From a virus, in IMG/VR virus record IMGVR_UViG_3300032053_000289, positions 1-33,395 of that record: 33,395 bases of DNA; one strand, written 5' to 3'. The notes below the pieces were generated by a model. It ran no database searches and was not told the origin of the DNA. It was given only the letters and a program-made list of their open reading frames with translations. The position numbers and the translations under genes were made by a program. Positions 5,695-32,713 of the stretch are shown piece after piece. Each line of letters starts with the position of its first letter. Position 1 is the stretch's first letter.

Positions 5695-5754
5695 GTGATG
5701 TCTAAACGATAGATAAATTAACCAATTTTGAAAGAATAAACAGGAGAATTGAAA

Positions 5755-7632
5755 ATGAAGTTTTTTACAATGGAACAATTGTCGGAAGGTATCAAAGACC
5801 GACACGTAGGTGCTGAGCGATCACGCCTCGTAGAGAAGTGGAGCCGAACAGGTTTGCTCCGCGGTCTCGAAGGCAACCGTCGCGAAGTTATGTCGCAGTT
5901 GCTTGAAAATCAGGCTGCTCAGGTTCTTAAGGAATCAAATGCTTTGTCAACCGGCGGTGGTGCACTCGCATCATCAGGCCAGGTTCAAGGTTTCTCAAAT
6001 ATCGCGTTCCCAATCGTTCGTCGAGTATTCGGTGGTCTCGTTGCAAATGAACTAGTTTCATTGCAGCCGATGTCATTGCCGTCAGGTCTTATCTTTTATC
6101 TTGATTATACGTACGGTAACGACGTTGGTCTCATAACTGGTGGTACTACGGAAACGTACTCGCGAGGACAATCAATCTACAACAACCCAACCGGTAAGGG
6201 AATCCAGTCCGGATCACTTGCCGCTGGTGGTATGTATGATCTTGTCAACGTTGGTTTCAGCAAGGTTCACTCTGGTACTCTAGGTGTTTCAGGAACGCTT
6301 GCCGATGTTGGTGCGTGGGGTGGTGTGGATGGTACGACATGGTCGACCGGTTTGACCGTCAAGGATTCAGGCATGATGTCGGGAACGAACGGACGTATGT
6401 TGCAGTTCGATCCTCAGATTGATGCTGACTTGAGTGTCAATACTCTTGACGTCTCATTCGTTCACTTGACGATTTCACAACTTCAGACGAAGATCGTTAA
6501 GGGTGATTTCATGGCAGTTGAACAGATTGCTATCCATTCATTTGGGACTACAAACGGTGCAGTTGCGTGGGGTGATTCATATCAGTCAGGTCAAGGAATC
6601 CTCAATCTTCGTCGTCTTAATAAACGAGGAGATTGGAATGGTTCAACGTTTACATTGAATCCAATGAACGGAACGCACGTTCAATGTGTTGTTAGAATTA
6701 CGAATGCGTCAACAACGCCCGCAATTCTTGACACAACGGCATTAAGCATGGCAATTGCCGATGCGTTGGTGGCCGGTGACAGCACTGGAGCAGTCTTGAC
6801 TGTTCCATCGTTTGAAACTGACTTTGGTGCAACGCCAGCTCCTGCAATCCCAGAGATTGATATCAAGATCGAATCAATTGCAATCACTGCAACGACCCGA
6901 AAGCTACGTGCTCGTTGGTCGCCAGAACTTGCGCAGGATTTGAATGCGTATCACTCAATGGATGCTGAAGTTGAATTGACTTCAATCCTTTCAGAACAGA
7001 TTGCTCTTGAAATCGACCGCGAAATCTTGAACGACCTTGTGACGCAAGCAAATGGTGCGAATATGTACTGGAGCCGTGCTCCTGGACGGTTCGTCAACAA
7101 GCTTACCGGTCAGGTCCAGACTCTTGCTTCAAGCTTGAGCATTGGTCCTCAATTTACTGGTACGGTTCGTGAATGGTATGAAACGCTTGTCGAGACTGTT
7201 ATCGACGTCGCAAATACGATTCATAGAAAGACTCTTCGTGGAAGCGCAAACTTCATGGTCACTGGCCCTGACGTCTGCACGATCCTTGAAAGCTCAGTCT
7301 TGTACAAGCCTAAGTTCTCAATCGACGGCGAAGGACAAGTTGGTAGCCCATTCACCATTGGTGCAGAAGCTATCGGTACCGTGTCGAATCGATTCACCAT
7401 CTACAAGGACCCTTATTTCCCACGAAATAAGATTCTCGTAGGTTACAAGGGTGGAAGTTATTTGGAAACTGGGTATGTCTATGCTCCATACGTTCCGCTT
7501 ATCATCACCCCAACGATCTTCCGTCCTGAAGACTTCGCGCCTACCAAGGGTGTGATGACGAGATACGGGAAAAAAATGGTCCGCAGTGACTTTTTTGGAA
7601 CTGTCACCGTGCTCGACATGAACATCATATAG
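5755..7632 (+). CDS. gp23: Major capsid protein, T4 gp23 family
   Basis: A 625-residue capsid subunit. The N-terminus is a helical, charged pro-region. After VLKE (residues 57-60) comes SNALSTGGG, a sensible place for gp21 cleavage (L-x-E), matching the roughly 65-residue pro-peptide removed from T4 gp23. The mature part opens with FPIVRRVFGGLVANELVSLQPMSLPSGLIFYL, given here only as positions 81-112, the family hallmark. The C-terminal core includes VGYKGGSYLETGYVYAPYVP-like strands and a RYGKKMV end. CAGGAG at 5741-5746 is 8 nt before ATG 5755, so I reject the in-frame TTG six bases upstream. Base composition is visibly richer in G+C and in codons such as CGT, TTC and AAG than neighbouring genes, as expected for the most expressed protein. 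A terminator follows. Confidence 0.94.
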   Translation: MKFFTMEQLSEGIKDRHVGAERSRLVEKWSRTGLLRGLEGNRREVMSQLLENQAAQVLKESNALSTGGGALASSGQVQGFSNIAFPIVRRVFGGLVANELVSLQPMSLPSGLIFYLDYTYGNDVGLITGGTTETYSRGQSIYNNPTGKGIQSGSLAAGGMYDLVNVGFSKVHSGTLGVSGTLADVGAWGGVDGTTWSTGLTVKDSGMMSGTNGRMLQFDPQIDADLSVNTLDVSFVHLTISQLQTKIVKGDFMAVEQIAIHSFGTTNGAVAWGDSYQSGQGILNLRRLNKRGDWNGSTFTLNPMNGTHVQCVVRITNASTTPAILDTTALSMAIADALVAGDSTGAVLTVPSFETDFGATPAPAIPEIDIKIESIAITATTRKLRARWSPELAQDLNAYHSMDAEVELTSILSEQIALEIDREILNDLVTQANGANMYWSRAPGRFVNKLTGQVQTLASSLSIGPQFTGTVREWYETLVETVIDVANTIHRKTLRGSANFMVTGPDVCTILESSVLYKPKFSIDGEGQVGSPFTIGAEAIGTVSNRFTIYKDPYFPRNKILVGYKGGSYLETGYVYAPYVPLIITPTIFRPEDFAPTKGVMTRYGKKMVRSDFFGTVTVLDMNII

Positions 7633-7841: not shown

Positions 7842-8981
7842 ATGCCCAAACCACACAATTGTAAAATCTGTGATGAAAAGATTGCGGGCTTCAAAAAACT
7901 TTCAGAACACATTAAGAAGGCGCACAAGATTTCATCTCTTGATTATTATGTAAACCATAACCGCGAAGGTGTAAGACCCCTGTGCCGTCACTGTGGGCAG
8001 GAAACAAGGTTCGTGAGTCTCAGTAGGGGATTCAAACAATTCTGTCCAAACCATGCAAGGATTGCAGAATCAATCGCGGGAAAAAACAAAACACCAAAAA
8101 GTATTATTATCAAAAATATGACAAAACCATCGCCACTTCGTCAGGGAATTGTTGACTATGTAACATCACTTGGTTCTAGCATAAAAGTCGAACCATCAAT
8201 AAAAGATACATTTCCAGATTGTTCTTTTGACGTTAGCATTTGGATTCCGTCTAAAAAACTCGCGATCGACGTTCGTGACTTAGGAATGATCAGAAACGAA
8301 GAATCTGATGTTTTCGATAGAAAGCTTTCAAGGTACAAATTTCTAGAATGTAAAAAATTAGGAATTAAACTCATTCAAATTTTTTCAGATGAATGGATGA
8401 ATTCAAACGAAGTATGTAAATCAATGATTTCTCATTCGTTAGGTAAGACAAAGATATCACTCAATGCCAGGGATTGCGACGTTAAATTAATCACTGCCCG
8501 TGAAACAAAACCATTTCTTAAAGAAAGTCACGTTTCAGGACCAACAAATGCATCATACCATTTTGGATTGTTTCATTTTAAAGAAGGTCTAGTGTCTGTT
8601 GTAACTGTTAGAATTCCAATTCAAAAAAAATGGGGCAAAGTTGCCGAACTTGCAAGAATGGCTACAAAACCAAACGTCACTGTACGTGGCTCTGCTTCAA
8701 AATTGTTAGAACACGTTAAAAAATTGACAAAAGGTTTGGGATATGAAGGCGTTCTTTCGTATGCAGAGTTACGATTCGGCGAAGGTAAAGTATACGAAAA
8801 TTGTGGATTTACACTTGCCGGTGAATCAATGAATAATTATTGGTACACTGACGGCACGCGTCGATACGATAGGTTCAAGTACCGTGCCCAACCCGGAAAA
8901 ACTGAAAAAATTGTCGCTATTGAAAACGGCGTTCGTTCTGTGTGGGGTTGTGGAAATAACATATACGTTTTGAAGTTTTGA
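7842..8981 (+). CDS. Free-standing homing endonuclease, zinc fingers plus Vsr-like nuclease domain
   Basis: A 379-residue protein. Residues 7-30 are a C2H2 finger (CKIC, then HIKKAH) and residues about 48-67 a second Cys/His cluster (CRHC, then FCPNH). Residues about 120-195 follow the pattern of phage Vsr/EDxHD nucleases (FDVSIWIPSKKLAIDV, then KLGIKLIQIFSDEW). Residues about 200-360 match the C-terminal domain common in these phage endonucleases (ARDCDVKLI, FLKESHVSG, GSASKLL, YENCGF). The active-site strand is unusual: the usual AIE...NGLYWHSE is here AIDVRDLGMIRNEE, so the Glu is Asp and the His is missing. It is inserted between the capsid terminator and the next gene, a typical target neighbourhood. 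No Shine-Dalgarno site is visible. Probably catalytically weakened or dead. Confidence 0.8.
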   Translation: MPKPHNCKICDEKIAGFKKLSEHIKKAHKISSLDYYVNHNREGVRPLCRHCGQETRFVSLSRGFKQFCPNHARIAESIAGKNKTPKSIIIKNMTKPSPLRQGIVDYVTSLGSSIKVEPSIKDTFPDCSFDVSIWIPSKKLAIDVRDLGMIRNEESDVFDRKLSRYKFLECKKLGIKLIQIFSDEWMNSNEVCKSMISHSLGKTKISLNARDCDVKLITARETKPFLKESHVSGPTNASYHFGLFHFKEGLVSVVTVRIPIQKKWGKVAELARMATKPNVTVRGSASKLLEHVKKLTKGLGYEGVLSYAELRFGEGKVYENCGFTLAGESMNNYWYTDGTRRYDRFKYRAQPGKTEKIVAIENGVRSVWGCGNNIYVLKF

Positions 8982-10020: not shown

Positions 10021-10287
10021 ATGAGTTACTATGATATTCAGAATAAGAACGCCCGCATTGGAACGAGACTTGATCGTTCTGGAAAGCTTCGTACTGAAAC
10101 GCAGCGTCGTGATGAGGGAACTCTTCAGATGGCGGTTTCTACCGATCAACGTGCAAACAGCACGAATCTTTTCATTGATTCGGCTGACTGGGATTCAAAC
10201 GTTCAGTTGAACGGTCGACAGGCTCGATCGTTGTATCGATTGCTTCGTAAGCATTTCGGTAAGGCTGGCAAGTCACGCACTGCCTAA
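10021..10287 (+). CDS. Small basic protein, own transcription unit
   Basis: An 88-residue, Arg-rich hydrophilic protein with few hydrophobic residues in its first half (KNARIGTRLDRSGKLR). The second half has NVQLNGRQARSLYRLLRKHF, which looks like a helix that could bind nucleic acid or a partner. Codon choice (CGT/CGA Arg, AAG Lys, TTC Phe) resembles that of the major capsid gene more than that of its neighbours, which suggests strong expression. GGAG lies about 10 nt before the ATG. A candidate promoter lies upstream and a clear terminator lies 26 nt after the stop, so it is the one gene here that appears to be its own unit. I do not recognise it. Confidence 0.75.
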   Translation: MSYYDIQNKNARIGTRLDRSGKLRTETQRRDEGTLQMAVSTDQRANSTNLFIDSADWDSNVQLNGRQARSLYRLLRKHFGKAGKSRTA

Positions 10288-10312: not shown

Positions 10313-10348
10313 AAACGAACCATGATTGTGAAATTGTGGTTCGTTTTT
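10313..10348 (+). terminator. Strong rho-independent terminator
   Basis: AAACGAACCA pairs perfectly with TGGTTCGTTT through 10 bp around a 14-base loop and ends in a T5 run. It directly follows the small basic protein gene and separates it from the downstream genes and tmRNA. Confidence 0.85.
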
Positions 10349-10889: not shown

Positions 10890-11280
10890 GCGCTGGTAAA
10901 GGTTTCGACAGGGTGTTAAAATTTGAGAATGCATGCACCGGTGCACGAGGGTCCGGTTAATAACCCAAATGACGTATAACTGCAAACGATAATAGCAGCC
11001 TTCCACTAAGCCTCGCGGCCTAGGTGGGATGGGCGGGAACAGCCTTGAAACAGAAAGTTCCATAACCCAATCGTGAAACAGGGGAAAGTTAACATATGCG
11101 CGAATTGAAGTATGTTAAACAGGGAATGCAACGTGGCGACAAACCTGAAGCGTCGAGGACGCTATAAAATCTGAATGTTGGCACGGTAATCTTGCTTGCG
11201 GATGAAAAATGCAATCTAAGCATGTGAATGATGTTTCAAACAAGGCATTTTGGACGCGGGTTCGACTCCCGCCCAGTGCA
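10890..11280 (+). ncRNA. ssrA: tmRNA (one-piece), phage-encoded
   Basis: Transfer-messenger RNA, which rescues stalled ribosomes and adds a degradation tag. The acceptor stem is GCGCTGG (10890-10896) with CCAGTGC (11273-11279), discriminator A 11280. The third pair is G-U (10892 with 11277), the alanyl-tRNA synthetase identity signal. The T arm is GCGGG-TTCGACT-CCCGC (11256-11272). The 5' end carries the conserved GGTTTCGACAGGG, and the 3' part has CTAAGCATGT, whose GCATGT pairs with GCATGC at 10931-10936 as in helix P2. The resume codon is GCA at 10982. The tag reads ANDNSSLPLSLAA, then TAG (11021-11023). The bases after the discriminator are CGA, so CCA is not encoded and must be added. The region between contains several G/C-rich hairpins fitting the pseudoknots. 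No smpB is seen in this window. Confidence 0.96.
10982..11023 (+). other. tmRNA tag reading frame
   Basis: Thirteen codons, GCA AAC GAT AAT AGC AGC CTT CCA CTA AGC CTC GCG GCC, then a TAG stop. The frame gives ANDNSSLPLSLAA. The start (AND) and the LAA end match bacterial tags; the C-terminal LAA is the signal read by ClpXP-type proteases. The middle is Ser/Leu/Pro rich and lacks the usual ENYAL core. Confidence 0.9.
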
Positions 11281-11315
11281 CGATAATTATCTAAACATAA
11301 ATTAGGATATAAATT

Positions 11316-11496: not shown

Positions 11497-11727
11497 ATGA
11501 CACAAGAAATTCAGCGAATAGATTTATATAAACCAATTGCCAGTAATCGTATTGTGTCAGCACCCCTCGTTCTTAGAATTGGTGTTACACCAAGCGCCCC
11601 AAACGTTGAAGGTGGGACATTAAGTAGTTCAATGAAAATTGAAGAATATGTTTTACTGTCTGCTCTTCCTGAAGAAATTCAACGGCGAGTAAGAATGTCG
11701 ATTGATGTCCTAGTAGCTGGAAGGTAA
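11497..11727 (+). CDS. Unknown small protein
   Basis: A 76-residue protein without recognised motifs. The first half is beta-like (NRIVSAPLVLRIGVTPSAP); the second holds EEYVLLSALPEEIQRRVRMS, a helix that may be a protein or DNA contact. AAAGGAT precedes the start by 5 nt, and the gene abuts the 59-residue gene upstream and the methyltransferase downstream, so all three should be on one message. Role unknown. Confidence 0.65.
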   Translation: MTQEIQRIDLYKPIASNRIVSAPLVLRIGVTPSAPNVEGGTLSSSMKIEEYVLLSALPEEIQRRVRMSIDVLVAGR

Positions 11728-11732
11728 TCCGA

Positions 11733-12323
11733 GTGTCACATCACGGATATATTCCAATTGTTAAACAACGACTTCAAACATTAAAACATAGTCCATCAAT
11801 TATTGAAATTGGTGTTGATCGTGGTGTAACGTTTTTATCATTAGTAACGTTTCTTGCTAGAACACGTCCAGAATTTCTTGCCGTTGGCGTTGATATTCTT
11901 GTGCAAGAATCAGTTTCAATTCAAATGCAAAATTTAGATTTGCAATCAAAACAACAATCATTTCTTGTTACCGGTAATAGTTTAAGTGTTTTACCAAATA
12001 TGATTAATCAAGGAATGAAATTTGATGTAATCTTACTCGATGGTGATCACAATTATCACACTGTTTCGCAAGAGATGAATTTCATTACAAGTTTAATTCG
12101 TGACGATGGAGCAATTATCGTTGATGATTATGATGGTCGTTGGGGTGATCGTGATCTATTTTATCATGATCGTCCCGGATATGAAGACGTCGCATCAGCG
12201 ACAAAACCAGTTGTAACTGAAAAACATGGTGTTAGACCCGCTGTTGATGAATGGTTGGAGAAAAACACACAGTGGAAAAAAACAAAACCTTTGTTGGGTG
12301 AACCTGTTATGTTAATTCGCTAA
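11733..12323 (+). CDS. Class I SAM-dependent methyltransferase (Methyltransf_24-like)
   Basis: A 196-residue Rossmann-type methyltransferase. The SAM-binding motif I is IIEIGVDRGVTFLSL near residues 24-38. An acidic VGVDI follows the second strand. The later strand FDVILLDGDHNYHTV and the GAIIVDDYDGRW segment are typical of this family, which often modifies sugars or small metabolites. It starts with GTG after GGAAGG. Lying between small unknown genes and the endolysin, it could modify a host glycan, a virion sugar or DNA; the sequence does not tell which. The fold is secure, the substrate open. Confidence 0.8.
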   Translation: MSHHGYIPIVKQRLQTLKHSPSIIEIGVDRGVTFLSLVTFLARTRPEFLAVGVDILVQESVSIQMQNLDLQSKQQSFLVTGNSLSVLPNMINQGMKFDVILLDGDHNYHTVSQEMNFITSLIRDDGAIIVDDYDGRWGDRDLFYHDRPGYEDVASATKPVVTEKHGVRPAVDEWLEKNTQWKKTKPLLGEPVMLIR

Positions 12324-21175: not shown

Positions 21176-21275
21176 TTTAATACACAAGATAATGTCATGA
21201 CGTAAGTCAACTGTTATTTATATGATGTATAAATTTGAATTACGATATTCATCATTTACGTAAAGGATATAAGTC

Positions 21276-26598: not shown

Positions 26599-29598
26599 AT
26601 GCCCGAGCAAACTTTTAGATCACCAAATTATTTTGAACGCGAAATTGACTTGTCAACACCAAGATTACGTGGTCCTGTGGGTATACCCGCTGGCGTAATC
26701 GGAACCGCAAACAAGGGTCCCGCGTTCGTTCCTGTTACTTTTGCAAATTTTGATGAATTTGTTACAACGTTTGGAAATTTAGATCCAAAGTCGTTTGGAC
26801 CTTACGCAGTCAATGAATTTTTGAAACACCGTGCAGCTTTGACGTATTTGAGAGTCTTGGGCGCCGGAGCAAATGATTCAGATGGTGATATTGCTACAAC
26901 GCTTCAGACTGGCCGCGTTTTAAATGCCGGCTTTGCAATTGAAGGAACCGTAGCTACTCATGATTCTTCTGCCCGACACGTTGGTGCAATTCAATTTATT
27001 ACTGCTCGTCATACATCAGACTCAGATGAAGCATACGGCATGCCTATGTTTACTGACAATGACAGTTTCACAGCAGGTGCATCAAGTCTAGTTCGTGGAA
27101 TGGTTATGATGGCTTCCGGTGCAAGATTGATGATTATGGACGGAAATGAATCTGCTATTTCTGCATTTTCAACAGGTGGTCCGAATGACGTTGCTACACC
27201 CGTAAGTGGAAAGTTTAAATTAGTCATTTCATCAACGCTTGGAAATTCATTTTTTAATACTGATGGAAATCCTGGTGTTAAAATTCTTACTGCGTCATTC
27301 AATCCAACGTCAGCTGATTACTTCGCTAAGGTTTTGAACACTGATCCAGATAGATTTGTACAGGATCAACATTTATTGTATGCAGACTTTGCAGTCGATG
27401 AAGAAATTGCAATTGTAACATCGGCCGCAATTTTGTCTGGCAGCACTCAAACGAGTAACACATCAGGTGACGCTAGTTTGGTTATGCGTGATGCATTTGG
27501 TGCGTTTGATACAAGATACCAATCACCAAAGTCAACATCGTTTATTTCACAACCATTTGGTACAAATGAGTATGATTTGTTTCATATTGAAGCGCTCGAT
27601 GATGGAGAGTTTGCAAATAAACTTTACAAAGTTTCTATTACAAATTTAAAGGCGTCTCTTGACGATTCTCAACCATATGGTTCATTTACTTTGCAAGTTA
27701 GAAGTTGGGATGACACAGATCAAAATCCAATTGTTTTGGAATCATTTTCAAATTGTTCGCTTGATCCAAATTCTGAAAATTATGTTGCGCAAAAGATTGG
27801 TGATCGTAAAGTATTTTTTAACTTTGATGCATCACTTACTGATGAACGTCGTGTAGTTGCAACAGGCAAATATCAAAATATTTCGAAAATTGTTCGAATT
27901 CAAATGTCAGATGCCGTTGATAGAAAGCTTGTTCCTGCAAAGTCGCTTCCTTTTGGATTTAGGGGTATTGAAACTCTAAAAACAAATGATTCACTTACCG
28001 ACAGTATTTCATCAACATACAGACTTGGTGGAATTGTTGGAACTTCAACATTGACCGGATCTATTACTCCTCCCGTACCGTTTAGATTCAAACTAACAAA
28101 GGGTGAAATTCCTGTTGGTGGTGCATTCGTTGGCGCGCCAGGACCAACCGAATTAGCGAATAGTCAACTTCATTGGGGTGTAAAATTTGAACGAAATACG
28201 CTTCCATTGAATTCAAATTTGTCTTCTGAAAAGAATAAATTGCTAGAGTCATACACGAAATTTTTGGGAATCAAAAAATTAGATGTATTAGTGACCGGTT
28301 CCGGTGCAGATACGTTTAACAATAACAAATTCACCCTTGCTAAGGTTGCGTTTTCTAACACAAGCATTACACACCTAACGGGAACTGTCAATGATCACGT
28401 ACGTGAAGCAGCATATATTCGAAATGCAAAACTTGATCTTTCTGACTATACGGTCAATACAAACATCGGTCGCCGCATTACGTTTGCAACTGTTTTAGCG
28501 CAAGATTCTGCTGCAAATTTCAATAAGTTTTCACCTTTTATGAAGTTTACAAACTTTATGCAAGGTGGATTTGACGGCGTCAACGTTCTTGATAGAAACG
28601 CTCGTAGATTAAACGATAAAGCATCATCATTTGATGCTTCTGGTGGTGCTGAAGTGGGTTACGTTTCACCAGGCATGCTATCAAATCAAAATGGAACCGG
28701 TCAAACGAATTCAACGGTTCGTTCATTTATAACTGCAATTGATATCATGACTGATTCAATGATTGTTAATACGAATATTCTTGCAATCCCTGGGATTCGT
28801 GAATCGTTCGTTACTGATTACGCAATGAAAAAAGTTCGCGATTACGGCCTTGCATATTACGTTATGGATGTTCCATCGTATGATGATAATACGCTTAGAT
28901 TGTATGACGACTCATCAGAACGTCCAGACGTTGAAAAAACAGCGGCAATTGTTGATTCAAGAGCAATTGATAATAATTACGTTGGAACGTACTTTCCAAA
29001 CGTGTTTATTGATGACTTAACGAATAAGCGCAAACTCAAGGTTCCAGTCTCTGTTGCAGTAATGGGAGCATTAGCGTTCAACGATAGAGTGGCATATCCA
29101 TGGTTTGCTCCGGCAGGATTTAATCGTGCCTCATTAGATTTCGTTTCTAACGTTGAAGTTAGATTAAACGTAACTGACAGAGATCGATTGTATGATTCTA
29201 GAATTAATCCAATCGCAACCTTTCCAAGACTTGGATTCGTAATCTATGGACAGAAAACACTCCAGGTTTCAAAGTCGGCTCTTGATCGTGTAAATGTTCG
29301 TAGATTACTTTTGGAAGTCAAACGAATCATTATTAACATTGCTCAACAATCAACGTTTGAAAATAACACTCCTGCCGTTCGTAACAAATTTGTTTCTGAC
29401 TCAGTTTTACAACTTGGTTTGATTCAGGCTCAAGCAGGAATCGAAGAATTTAGAGTTATTTGTAATGAGACAAATAACACACAAGAAGATGCGAATTTGA
29501 ACAAAATGAATGGAAGAATTGTGGTTGTTCCAACAAGAGTTATTGAATACATCGCATTAGATTTCATTGTGACATCAGCGGGTGTCGTATTCGTCTAA
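26599..29598 (+). CDS. gp18: Tail sheath protein 1, gp18 family
   Basis: A 999-residue contractile sheath subunit (T4 gp18 is 659 residues, so this one carries large insertions). The N-terminus is the typical RGPVGIPAGVIGTANKGPAFVP, given here only as positions 24-45, followed by the embedded FGPYAVNEFL segment. The middle is variable and loop-rich. The C-terminal part has AYPWFAPAGFNRASL-like HPWFAPAG pattern, INPIATFP, YGQKTLQVSKSALDRVNVRRL, and the end IALDFIVTSAGV. GAGGAG is 8 nt before the ATG. It is followed by a second gene with the same architecture. Confidence 0.92.
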   Translation: MPEQTFRSPNYFEREIDLSTPRLRGPVGIPAGVIGTANKGPAFVPVTFANFDEFVTTFGNLDPKSFGPYAVNEFLKHRAALTYLRVLGAGANDSDGDIATTLQTGRVLNAGFAIEGTVATHDSSARHVGAIQFITARHTSDSDEAYGMPMFTDNDSFTAGASSLVRGMVMMASGARLMIMDGNESAISAFSTGGPNDVATPVSGKFKLVISSTLGNSFFNTDGNPGVKILTASFNPTSADYFAKVLNTDPDRFVQDQHLLYADFAVDEEIAIVTSAAILSGSTQTSNTSGDASLVMRDAFGAFDTRYQSPKSTSFISQPFGTNEYDLFHIEALDDGEFANKLYKVSITNLKASLDDSQPYGSFTLQVRSWDDTDQNPIVLESFSNCSLDPNSENYVAQKIGDRKVFFNFDASLTDERRVVATGKYQNISKIVRIQMSDAVDRKLVPAKSLPFGFRGIETLKTNDSLTDSISSTYRLGGIVGTSTLTGSITPPVPFRFKLTKGEIPVGGAFVGAPGPTELANSQLHWGVKFERNTLPLNSNLSSEKNKLLESYTKFLGIKKLDVLVTGSGADTFNNNKFTLAKVAFSNTSITHLTGTVNDHVREAAYIRNAKLDLSDYTVNTNIGRRITFATVLAQDSAANFNKFSPFMKFTNFMQGGFDGVNVLDRNARRLNDKASSFDASGGAEVGYVSPGMLSNQNGTGQTNSTVRSFITAIDIMTDSMIVNTNILAIPGIRESFVTDYAMKKVRDYGLAYYVMDVPSYDDNTLRLYDDSSERPDVEKTAAIVDSRAIDNNYVGTYFPNVFIDDLTNKRKLKVPVSVAVMGALAFNDRVAYPWFAPAGFNRASLDFVSNVEVRLNVTDRDRLYDSRINPIATFPRLGFVIYGQKTLQVSKSALDRVNVRRLLLEVKRIIINIAQQSTFENNTPAVRNKFVSDSVLQLGLIQAQAGIEEFRVICNETNNTQEDANLNKMNGRIVVVPTRVIEYIALDFIVTSAGVVFV

Positions 29599-29674: not shown

Positions 29675-32600
29675 ATGTCACAACTAAAGTTTGGTAGTGC
29701 AGGCGTAACATCGAAAGAGATTGATATCTCGGGTCAAGTTGTACAAAAACCAACAGGTATTCCTGCTGGTGTGATTGGAACTGCGCTACGTGGCCCAGCG
29801 TTCGTTCCCGTTACAATTGGTGTTGTTAATGATTTTTATGCTAAATTTGGTTTAACGGACGGAAAGAAATTTGGTCCATTAGCTGTAACTGAGTGGTTAC
29901 GCAACGCGAAATCCGCAACGTACGTTCGAGTACTTGGTGTTGGAGATGGTAAGAAGCGAACTTCTGATGGATCTGTTACTTCTGCCGGGTTCACGGTTGG
30001 AGAAAATCAACCAAGAGATGGCGATGGCCTACTTTTTGGAAATGAATATGCAACGTCAGGTAGCAATAGCGTTTCAGGTAGAGTGTTCTTTTTAGGGGCA
30101 TTTATGTCTGAATCTGCCGGATCAAGTATTTTTTCTGACGCAGGAATTCAAGGTCAGGGAAGCATCACGCCGGGAGTTAACACCGCAGTTCCTGTAATTA
30201 GAGGACTTTTGATGGCAGCGTCAGGCGTAATATTACGTCTATCGTCATCTATTACTTCGTCAACAAATCCAGCTTCGAATCTTGTTGCCACCGAACAAAG
30301 TTCACAAGGTTCATTATTCGGTTCTGTTACGTTGATGGATCAGAATGTATCAAAACAGGATTTCGTCTTGTTATTGAATGGTCACAAAGGAACTAATTCA
30401 CTTTATCCTAACGTTATTACTGCGTCATTTGATATGACGTCACCAAATTATTTTGCAAACGTTCTAAATTTAGATCCTCTTAAGATTGAACAGGCAGGTC
30501 ACTATTTGCATTCTCATTGGGATGTACATAATTCATCTGCCGTTGTAACGGGTTCTGGTCTTGTGTCAATATTGAGTGGTGCCGGTGCTACAACAGCGCG
30601 CGCCGTAGGTAAAGAAGTTTCTGCATTCATAACAACCAGTTCACTAGCAAGAAACGTTGGTTCTGATACTGTTCCAAATTATGAATCTTGGACAGATAGA
30701 TTTTCTCACGCAAAATCACCGTGGGTTATTTCACAAAAGTTCGGTGGTATTGCAACAAACCTATTCAGGCTTCATGATTTGAACGCAGGTAAGGGAAATT
30801 CAACAACTGTAAAATTCTCTATTGAGAACATGGTTGTTTCAACTGATTTATCAGATAGATACGGGAATTTTGATCTAGTCATTAGAAACTGGAATGATCT
30901 TGACAGCAATATGCAACCTATCGAGCAATGGAGGGGTTTGAATCTCAACCCTAACTCAGATCGATATATTGCGAAAATAATTGGTGATGCTCATATTTTC
31001 TATAATTTTGATCAAACCGAATCCGGCCAAAAATTAATCGTTGAAGGAAATTACACGAATCAATCAAATTATGTTCGAGTTGAAATGTCATTAGACGTTG
31101 AAAATCAAATTGTTGATTCTACTGCACTTCCTTTTGGCGTTCGAGGTATTTCACACCTTGTCACGTCAGGCACTATGCCAATGACATCACCGGCGAGTAA
31201 TCAAATTGACATTGCGTCTGTTTTGAAACGCGCGATTCAATTGCCTGTTCCAATGAGAAAGACAATTACACAAGGATCTGGTGCGAAACTTTCTGTGAAC
31301 CCAGTTCTTTATTGGGGTCCTCGATTTGAACACGTTACCAGTCTAACAACGCCGAATGCTAGCGTAATGCATGACAAGTCACTCGATAACTTCGCTAAAT
31401 TCTTTCCAGATTTCTCTGAAACAACACAAAATATGATTGTCGGTGACAACTCAGGGACTCCTGCGACAGTGGAGAATGGAACGTTGGACTCTGATTTGTT
31501 CTGTAACAATATGTTTACACTTGAAAACATTATGGTTACTACGGGTTCAACAGGACTTGCAGATTCAACGAAGTGGGATCTTGCAACATATGTTCGAGCT
31601 GGTAACATTGGAACGAATGATGTAGCAAAAACTCGTCGACTTTCAATCGATGATTTCGTGCAAGCAAATAGACGCTTTTTGAAATATTCATTCTTTATGC
31701 AAGGTGGATTTGATGGTGTCAACGTTTTTGATAACGACGAAGCAGAAATTAATGATACTGCCGTTGTTGCAGATATGAATGATGCAAACAGAGGAAGACA
31801 AGACGGTCCATCTGTAAAGGCATATAGCAAAGCACTTGACATCATGAAAAACGTCGTCAACGTAGATGTTCAATTATTGGCAATCCCAGGAATTAGACAC
31901 CCAATCATTACGAACGCTGGTATTAACGCAGTTGAAGAAAGATTTGATGCGTTGTTCATTCTAGATGTCGAACAGGTCGATAACGACGGAAGTAACATAG
32001 TAAGTGATAATCAACTTCCATCTGTTACGTTGACTGTTTCAAATCTCAGTGACCGTGCACTTGATTCAAGTTTTGCTGCAACGTATTTCCCTGACGTTAC
32101 TGTGTCAGATCCAAATACACACACAAACGTTATTGTTCCTCCTTCGGTGGTTGTTCTTGGTGCAATGGCATTGAATGACGCAATTGGTCACCCGTGGTTT
32201 GCACCTGCTGGGTTTACTCGAGGCGCATTGCAGTCGGCACTTGAAGCAAGAGTTAAGTTGTCTAAGACAAATATGGATGCGCTTTATGATGCTGGTATTA
32301 ACCCAATCACAGCATTCCCAGGGAACGCAACAGCAGGTACGAATCCAAAGGGTGGTGTTGTTGTGTGGGGTCAAAAGACTCTTCAGGTTCAATCTTCAGC
32401 TCTTGATCGTGTAAACGTTCGTAGATTGTTGATTGACATCAGACGTCAAGTTAGAGACATCGCACAAACAATTATCTTTGAACCAAATCGTGAAGCAACG
32501 TTGGCAAAGTTCTCCTCAGCTGTAACGCCAAGACTTCAAAGAATTCAAGCGTTGTCAGGACTTGAAAGATTCAAGATCATAATTGATTCTTCAACGACTA

Positions 32601-32713
32601 CACAGTCTGATATTGAGAATAATACATTACGTGGAAAAATTTACGTACAACCAACAAAAACGATCGAACAAGTCAGTCTTGACTTCGTCGTATCAAACAA
32701 CGTTGCAGCCTAG
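29675..32713 (+). CDS. Tail sheath protein 2, gp18 family
   Basis: A 1012-residue paralog of the preceding sheath protein. It shares the N-terminal GIPAGVIGTALRGPAFVPVT region and the C-terminal block HPWFAPAGFTRGAL, INPITAFPG, WGQKTLQVQSSALDRVNVRR, then QVSLDFVVSNN. The middle has its own insertions and differs more. GAGGAAG lies 9 nt before the ATG. The two paralogs have diverged well below simple duplication, so both are probably functional. They could build a mixed sheath or two tail forms. Alternatively one could be a sheath-like head-proximal ring. The order sheath-sheath without an intervening tube gene is noteworthy, and three small genes follow it. Confidence 0.9.
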   Translation: MSQLKFGSAGVTSKEIDISGQVVQKPTGIPAGVIGTALRGPAFVPVTIGVVNDFYAKFGLTDGKKFGPLAVTEWLRNAKSATYVRVLGVGDGKKRTSDGSVTSAGFTVGENQPRDGDGLLFGNEYATSGSNSVSGRVFFLGAFMSESAGSSIFSDAGIQGQGSITPGVNTAVPVIRGLLMAASGVILRLSSSITSSTNPASNLVATEQSSQGSLFGSVTLMDQNVSKQDFVLLLNGHKGTNSLYPNVITASFDMTSPNYFANVLNLDPLKIEQAGHYLHSHWDVHNSSAVVTGSGLVSILSGAGATTARAVGKEVSAFITTSSLARNVGSDTVPNYESWTDRFSHAKSPWVISQKFGGIATNLFRLHDLNAGKGNSTTVKFSIENMVVSTDLSDRYGNFDLVIRNWNDLDSNMQPIEQWRGLNLNPNSDRYIAKIIGDAHIFYNFDQTESGQKLIVEGNYTNQSNYVRVEMSLDVENQIVDSTALPFGVRGISHLVTSGTMPMTSPASNQIDIASVLKRAIQLPVPMRKTITQGSGAKLSVNPVLYWGPRFEHVTSLTTPNASVMHDKSLDNFAKFFPDFSETTQNMIVGDNSGTPATVENGTLDSDLFCNNMFTLENIMVTTGSTGLADSTKWDLATYVRAGNIGTNDVAKTRRLSIDDFVQANRRFLKYSFFMQGGFDGVNVFDNDEAEINDTAVVADMNDANRGRQDGPSVKAYSKALDIMKNVVNVDVQLLAIPGIRHPIITNAGINAVEERFDALFILDVEQVDNDGSNIVSDNQLPSVTLTVSNLSDRALDSSFAATYFPDVTVSDPNTHTNVIVPPSVVVLGAMALNDAIGHPWFAPAGFTRGALQSALEARVKLSKTNMDALYDAGINPITAFPGNATAGTNPKGGVVVWGQKTLQVQSSALDRVNVRRLLIDIRRQVRDIAQTIIFEPNREATLAKFSSAVTPRLQRIQALSGLERFKIIIDSSTTTQSDIENNTLRGKIYVQPTKTIEQVSLDFVVSNNVAA

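Follow-up and report, generated by a model that had tools for sequence, protein, structure and literature searches.

tmRNA is the RNA that frees stuck ribosomes. Phage-encoded copies, including those of huge phages, have already been published: ten phages with tmRNA were listed in 2014, a 2025 database held 79 unique bacteriophage sequences (PMC4131195, PMC11915505), and a survey that included two-piece forms, mostly from marine or aquatic phages, reported tmRNA in 402 of 18,146 phages (PMC9004378). tmRNA has also been described in the Sinorhizobium jumbo phage AP-J-162 and in Bradyrhizobium elkanii phages (PMC11242549, PMC12656738), and huge phages can carry both tmRNA and SmpB (PMC7162821). 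The methylophage Melnitz and related marine phages encode a tmRNA of alphaproteobacterial affinity, which in Melnitz is two-piece and occurs with a glutamine riboswitch (PMC9004378). The mitochondrial tmRNA of Jakoba libera was described as 're-permuted' (PMC11915505), and T-loop deviations in Caulobacter and in the Reclinomonas mitochondrion were noted in a 2005 comparison (PMC1168896). The open-access papers searched describe no phage tmRNA that is one-piece and bears alphaproteobacterial marks; as far as they show, a phage family pairing the one-piece architecture with an alphaproteobacterial tag, and in some members with the alphaproteobacterial T-loop, is new.

The locus studied here lies in IMG/VR record IMGVR_UViG_3300032053_000289, an incomplete phage fragment of 33,395 bases that was analysed as a whole (the window). 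The only RNA gene that ARAGORN called in the window is a one-piece, unpermuted tmRNA (ssrA) on the + strand at 10890–11281, with the tag ANDNSSLPLSLAA followed by a stop; the 5' tRNA-like half, the tag and the 3' tRNA-like half follow each other in a single uninterrupted gene. The Rfam model RF00023 matched end to end (model positions 1–374) at 10890–11283; its 85.8 bits (E = 3.7e-32) exceed the gathering score of 47. The initial annotation had proposed a complete one-piece tmRNA gene at this site, to be checked with ARAGORN and a covariance model. Both searches agreed with it, as did the covariation, the conserved tag and the conserved synteny described below, and all the parts it had named were found. 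Its description of phage tmRNAs as uncommon is fair in view of the published 402 of 18,146 phages (PMC9004378). The 7-bp acceptor stem consists of GCGCTGG (10890–10896) and CCAGTGC with the discriminator A (11273–11280); its third pair is G-U (G3-U70), the alanine identity element, and pairs 2 and 4 showed compensatory differences to the relatives. The conserved 5' motif, GGTTTCGACAGGG (10901–10913), is a TTCGAC-type motif that aligned to RF00023 and is also present in phage relatives. The motif near the 3' end, CTAAGCATGT (11216–11225), was seen in the sequence; as a comparison with controls showed, standard tmRNAs have this motif in their 3' P2 strand. By sequence and stem layout, the T-arm GCGGG-TTCGACT-CCCGC (11256–11272) has a canonical T-loop and completes the tRNA-like domain. 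Between the two halves, the tag frame (10982–11023) comprises the resume codon GCA and the codons of ANDNSSLPLSLAA (10982–11020), with a hydrophobic, degron-like end, and the stop TAG (11021–11023). It is followed by a hairpin, GGAAC-AGCCTTGAAACAGAAA-GTTCC (11036–11061), of which the middle part is the loop. The bases after the discriminator A are CGA, so CCA must be added post-transcriptionally rather than being encoded. Taken over the entire RNA, the minimum free energy was uninformative (z = -0.20); the case for a tmRNA rests on homology and covariation.

With standard tmRNAs of the E. coli ssrA type (RF00023), the window gene shares the gene order, the end-to-end model match, G3-U70, the TTCGACT T-loop, CTAAGCATGT and a coded tag ending in LAA. 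Unlike these, its tag starts with ANDN, the loop of the post-tag hairpin is alphaproteobacteria-like and CCA is not encoded. The tag start and the hairpin loop, with its CCTnGnAACAGAA-type sequence, are instead shared with the two-piece tmRNAs of Alphaproteobacteria (RF01849), and seven phage relatives, but not the window, additionally share the T-loop GGC[AG]GT[AG]. The window gene differs from RF01849 in its standard 3' P2 strand and TTCGACT T-loop and in not being circularly permuted with the acceptor piece first, as were all 27 called alphaproteobacterial controls. The phage-encoded tmRNA of Melnitz and its relatives has a similar alphaproteobacterial affinity but is two-piece in Melnitz, whereas the window tmRNA is one-piece; no riboswitch was found in the window at the Rfam threshold. 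The tmRNA of Jakoba libera likewise belongs to a usually permuted, alphaproteobacteria-related lineage and has a gene order other than the usual permuted one. It is, however, mitochondrial, and mitochondrial tmRNA apparently has no tag frame; the 3' half of the window gene has the look of a standard tmRNA and not that of re-fused alphaproteobacterial pieces.

The alphaproteobacterial character of the tag was assessed with the pattern ANDNxxAPxALAA, which was scanned over 84,980 bacterial and archaeal species with one genome each. The scan gave 81 stretches, of which 80 were fetched as loci. All matches were in records titled Alphaproteobacteria (Devosia, Pelagibacterium, Rhodospirillales, Micavibrio, Azospirillum and others) or, for a few metagenome-assembled genomes, 'uncultured proteobacterium', and wherever ARAGORN called a tmRNA in these loci, it was a permuted two-piece gene. 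Of the 24 matches to the same pattern in viral contigs, ARAGORN or RF00023 identified 23 as one-piece; the remaining one is a Devosia-like two-piece gene. The prokaryotic tags all read APVALAA (80/80), while 22 of the 24 viral tags had L, M or F at the position of the bacterial V. In samples not chosen by tag, ANDN was the tag start in 24 of 27 called alphaproteobacterial two-piece tmRNAs versus 0 of 30 standard Pseudomonadota tmRNAs; these control samples were modest, and bacteria outside Pseudomonadota were covered by the tag pattern only. Full-length standard tmRNAs were present in only 6 of 385 alphaproteobacterial genomes, with quite different tags. Judged by these sequence comparisons, the window tmRNA belongs to a phage family that has a one-piece form together with a tag that is elsewhere characteristic of Alphaproteobacteria, a group with two-piece tmRNAs. 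GcrA as a marker for an alphaproteobacterial host gave one sub-threshold match and was unusable, as the control also matched an archaeon. BLAST of the locus and the window against 50,697 phages gave no DNA-level relative, and the tmRNA queries gave no isolate phage with a close copy. A weak tmRNA-query match led to the Rhodobacter phage RcRudolph (OP009285.1; L306, 2728–3142), which has a two-piece tmRNA with the tag ANDNVRMDAQALAA; the tmRNA has no annotation in the record, and part of it is covered by the annotated hypothetical protein UUV44828.1.

The alphaproteobacterial two-piece T-loop, GGC[AG]GTA by pattern in 26 of 27 controls, recurred in five phage one-piece copies (L042, L327, L335, L347 and L348), and L341 and L344 have GGCAGTG. 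The window and most other phage copies have TTCGA-type T-loops. The T-loops of L057 (14360–14734) and L014 (14152–14518) fit neither TTCGA nor GGC[AG]GTA. A post-tag hairpin with an AACAGAA-bearing loop (ACCTGGCAACAGAA and variants) was present in all 27 alphaproteobacterial controls, the window and many relatives, and absent from 30 standard non-alphaproteobacterial and six one-piece alphaproteobacterial controls. As an alphaproteobacteria-specific mark it was down-weighted, since comparable loops were also found in certain other permuted genes. Of the 29 phage copies, 26 have the 3' P2 motif AAGCnTGT, which is of the standard type: all 30 standard proteobacterial controls carry it and none of the 27 alphaproteobacterial two-piece tmRNAs does.

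Alphaproteobacterial signatures in an unpermuted form suggest that this phage tmRNA family is adapted to, or descended from, alphaproteobacterial trans-translation. For adaptation, to which we give about an even chance, a phage ancestor would have captured a standard proteobacterial tmRNA, the tag of which would since have been tuned to host proteases and SmpB, along with its T-loop in some lineages. Such convergence on the host machinery would account for the standard 3' half, with its AAGCnTGT motif, and for switches of T-loop type within one phage clade, where L063 has TTCGATT while L348 and L410, the latter from the same contig as L347, have GGCAGTA. It also fits the full-length profile matches of the phage copies to standard proteobacterial tmRNAs, although this colinear comparison favours unpermuted genes, and the similar hairpin loops of other permuted genes. 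Convergence is harder to reconcile with the agreement of three separate features (tag, hairpin loop and T-loop) with Alphaproteobacteria in part of the family, and with the absence of the hairpin loop after the tag in the standard non-alphaproteobacterial and one-piece alphaproteobacterial controls. For descent, a lineage of large phages would have kept an unpermuted alphaproteobacterial tmRNA outside bacterial chromosomes, either never permuted or rejoined, for use in hosts with a two-piece permuted tmRNA. We regard this as a tentative possibility; a never-permuted or re-linearised alphaproteobacterial-type gene would account for the shared details, and if this were true, these phages would harbour a missing intermediate in the evolution of tmRNA. 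The standard type of the 3' P2 strand speaks against a simple re-fusion of pieces from modern alphaproteobacterial genes. The family is useful for asking whether the tag tracks the host proteolysis system and how the two-piece tmRNA arose.

The window is, by its Pfam and phrog matches, a piece of a T4-like phage genome, with a head maturation protease, a peptide deformylase, a phrog_138 capsid protein, an endolysin-type peptidase, a tail fibre match and two tail sheath genes. The T4-like major capsid protein (5749–7632, + strand; phrog_138, E = 8.9e-71) served as the phylogenetic anchor, and contigs with capsid relatives in IMG/VR were up to 309 kb in size. In the tmRNA-bearing relatives the tmRNA gene lies on the same strand approximately 2–4 kb downstream of the capsid gene, between homologues of two small ORFs of the window, one of 88 aa on its left (10021–10287, +; 45–77% identity by tblastn) and one of 76 aa on its right (11497–11727, +; 44–54% identity). 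The next conserved gene downstream encodes a methyltransferase (Methyltransf_24; 11733–12323, +; Pfam E = 2.3e-11). One flanking homologue was missing in each of L016, L042 and L413, and some contigs stop early. The initial annotation had placed the gene in an accessory region; by synteny, the site is instead a conserved position in the late structural (head/tail) gene block. Both flanking genes were kept without a tmRNA in L020, L026, L033, L043 and L048. A profile search of the tmRNA-less relatives revealed no additional degenerate copies; the sole exception was a weak match (E = 0.85) over 30 bases where contig L017 ends. In the capsid tree, tmRNA presence was clustered, with 5 changes versus 11.3 with shuffled labels, and all members of the group closest to the window (window, L337, L411 and L002) had a tmRNA. 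Such tmRNAs also occurred in four large phage contigs (L328, L330, L333 and L335) in which no relative of the window capsid protein could be recognised, and the one-piece ANDN-type tmRNA may thus be common to more than one phage lineage.

Selection on the gene was apparent from both the tRNA-like domain and the tag. Across 19 distinct phage copies, 228 of 228 acceptor-stem and T-stem cells were standard pairs, a figure biased in favour of pairing because the stems were laid out by best-pairing register and the ill-fitting L344 and L057 were left out. Independent of register choice and omissions, 8 of the 12 stem pairs had both-sided changes. The covariation score was 0.623, compared with 0.120 ± 0.024 after shuffling; sliding the partners gave no more than 0.154. 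Across 29 phage copies, the ANDN start and the small hydrophobic end of the tag were kept despite synonymous codon changes. Most of these copies were retrieved by the tag pattern, which imposed ANDN on them, but it was independently present in all 11 copies retrieved via capsid homology. The resume alanine was written with four different codons, and among 26 distinct tag sequences the aspartate codon was GAT in 14 and GAC in 12. The C-terminus was LAA or IAA in all 29 copies except L014 (ALVA) and L348 (11978–12351), where no stop follows ...FALAA and the frame continues for many residues. The tag kept through synonymous codons and the covarying stems make it close to certain that the tmRNA gene is under selection. 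A chance passenger, that is, a host gene or attachment-site remnant now drifting, would be in line with the use of ssrA as a common integration site of mobile elements (PMC9004378, PMC11915505) and with the odd T-loops of some relatives. We consider it very improbable given the strong covariation, the single syntenic site shared by related contigs and the clustering in the capsid tree.

No SmpB gene (PF01668) was detected in 28 and 18 related or tag-matched viral records (partly overlapping sets), some of them of 140–446 kb and including records of 309, 361 and 446 kb; ten control bacteria were all positive. The huge phages of Al-Shayeb et al. (2020), among which both tmRNA and SmpB are reported, likewise combine tmRNA and peptide deformylase in large phages (PMC7162821). 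Owing to the absence of SmpB from the searched records, the phage tmRNA probably works with host SmpB; the window genome is incomplete, and a phage SmpB encoded elsewhere is possible. The locus is very likely a working phage-encoded one-piece tmRNA that takes part in ordinary trans-translation with host factors, which is the best-supported mechanism at the sequence level. The initial annotation had offered three uses: freeing ribosomes late in infection, taking the place of a host tmRNA, or marking host proteins with the phage's own tag; ribosome rescue with host SmpB would be the most economical. For its expression, charging, SmpB use, proteolysis and benefit we infer the following course, in which the roles of RNase P, AlaRS, EF-Tu and ClpXP follow general knowledge of trans-translation. 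The tmRNA would probably be transcribed together with the surrounding head genes and matured by host enzymes, with RNase P acting at the 5' end and CCA being added by the host. Host AlaRS would charge it with alanine via G3-U70, and host SmpB and EF-Tu would deliver it where ribosomes have stalled because an mRNA is broken or non-stop. After resuming at GCA, translation would append ANDNSSLPLSLAA, whose LAA end should mark the product for degradation by ClpXP or another host protease, and ribosomes would thereby stay in circulation during infection. Adaptation by convergence as the origin of the gene is compatible with trans-translation as its function. If the host is alphaproteobacterial, its own tmRNA would have the T-loop GGC[AG]GTA versus TTCGACT in the window, which counts against the favoured reading of a working tmRNA. 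Near relatives with TTCGA or GGC[AG]GTA loops are natural paired material for studying the matching of SmpB and T-loop.

The lack of SmpB genes in the relatives' records would also fit a decoy that dampens trans-translation in the host by binding its SmpB or stalled ribosomes. A precedent is the tag-less tmRNA of mycobacteriophage DS6A, which is little more than a tRNA-like domain and reportedly inhibits tmRNA (PMC4131195, PMC11915505). A decoy would need neither the tag frame nor the degron-like end that are conserved here through synonymous codon changes, and the G3-U70 acceptor was retained in 18 of 19 distinct stems, so that we regard this role as improbable and trans-translation with host factors as the preferred reading. 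The exception, L016 (11610–11965), has G-C as its third and G-U as its fourth acceptor pair, a shifted alanine identity element.

Further observations concern the neighbourhood of the gene. A sigma-70 scan for promoters gave 10 promoter-like sites versus 8.3 in shuffles, none of them clear, which also counts against a working tmRNA, and a search of the window for T4-type late promoters gave a single TATAAATA, on the other strand at 21215, and no above-chance signal. Approximately 540 bases upstream of the tmRNA there is a strong terminator-like hairpin (10313–10346) whose 15-pair stem closes a 4-base loop and precedes a T-rich tail. The peptide deformylase gene (1903–2388) in the head block was present in most tmRNA-bearing relatives and absent from most tmRNA-less ones by tblastn, with the exceptions L042, L065 and L068; this association is probably confounded by phylogeny. 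The ORF at 7842–8981 matched HNH/homing endonuclease families and also the Mom DNA-modification family. Two large tail-sheath-like genes are arranged in tandem at 26599–29598 and 29675–32713 (999 and 1012 aa), and both matched phrog_23.
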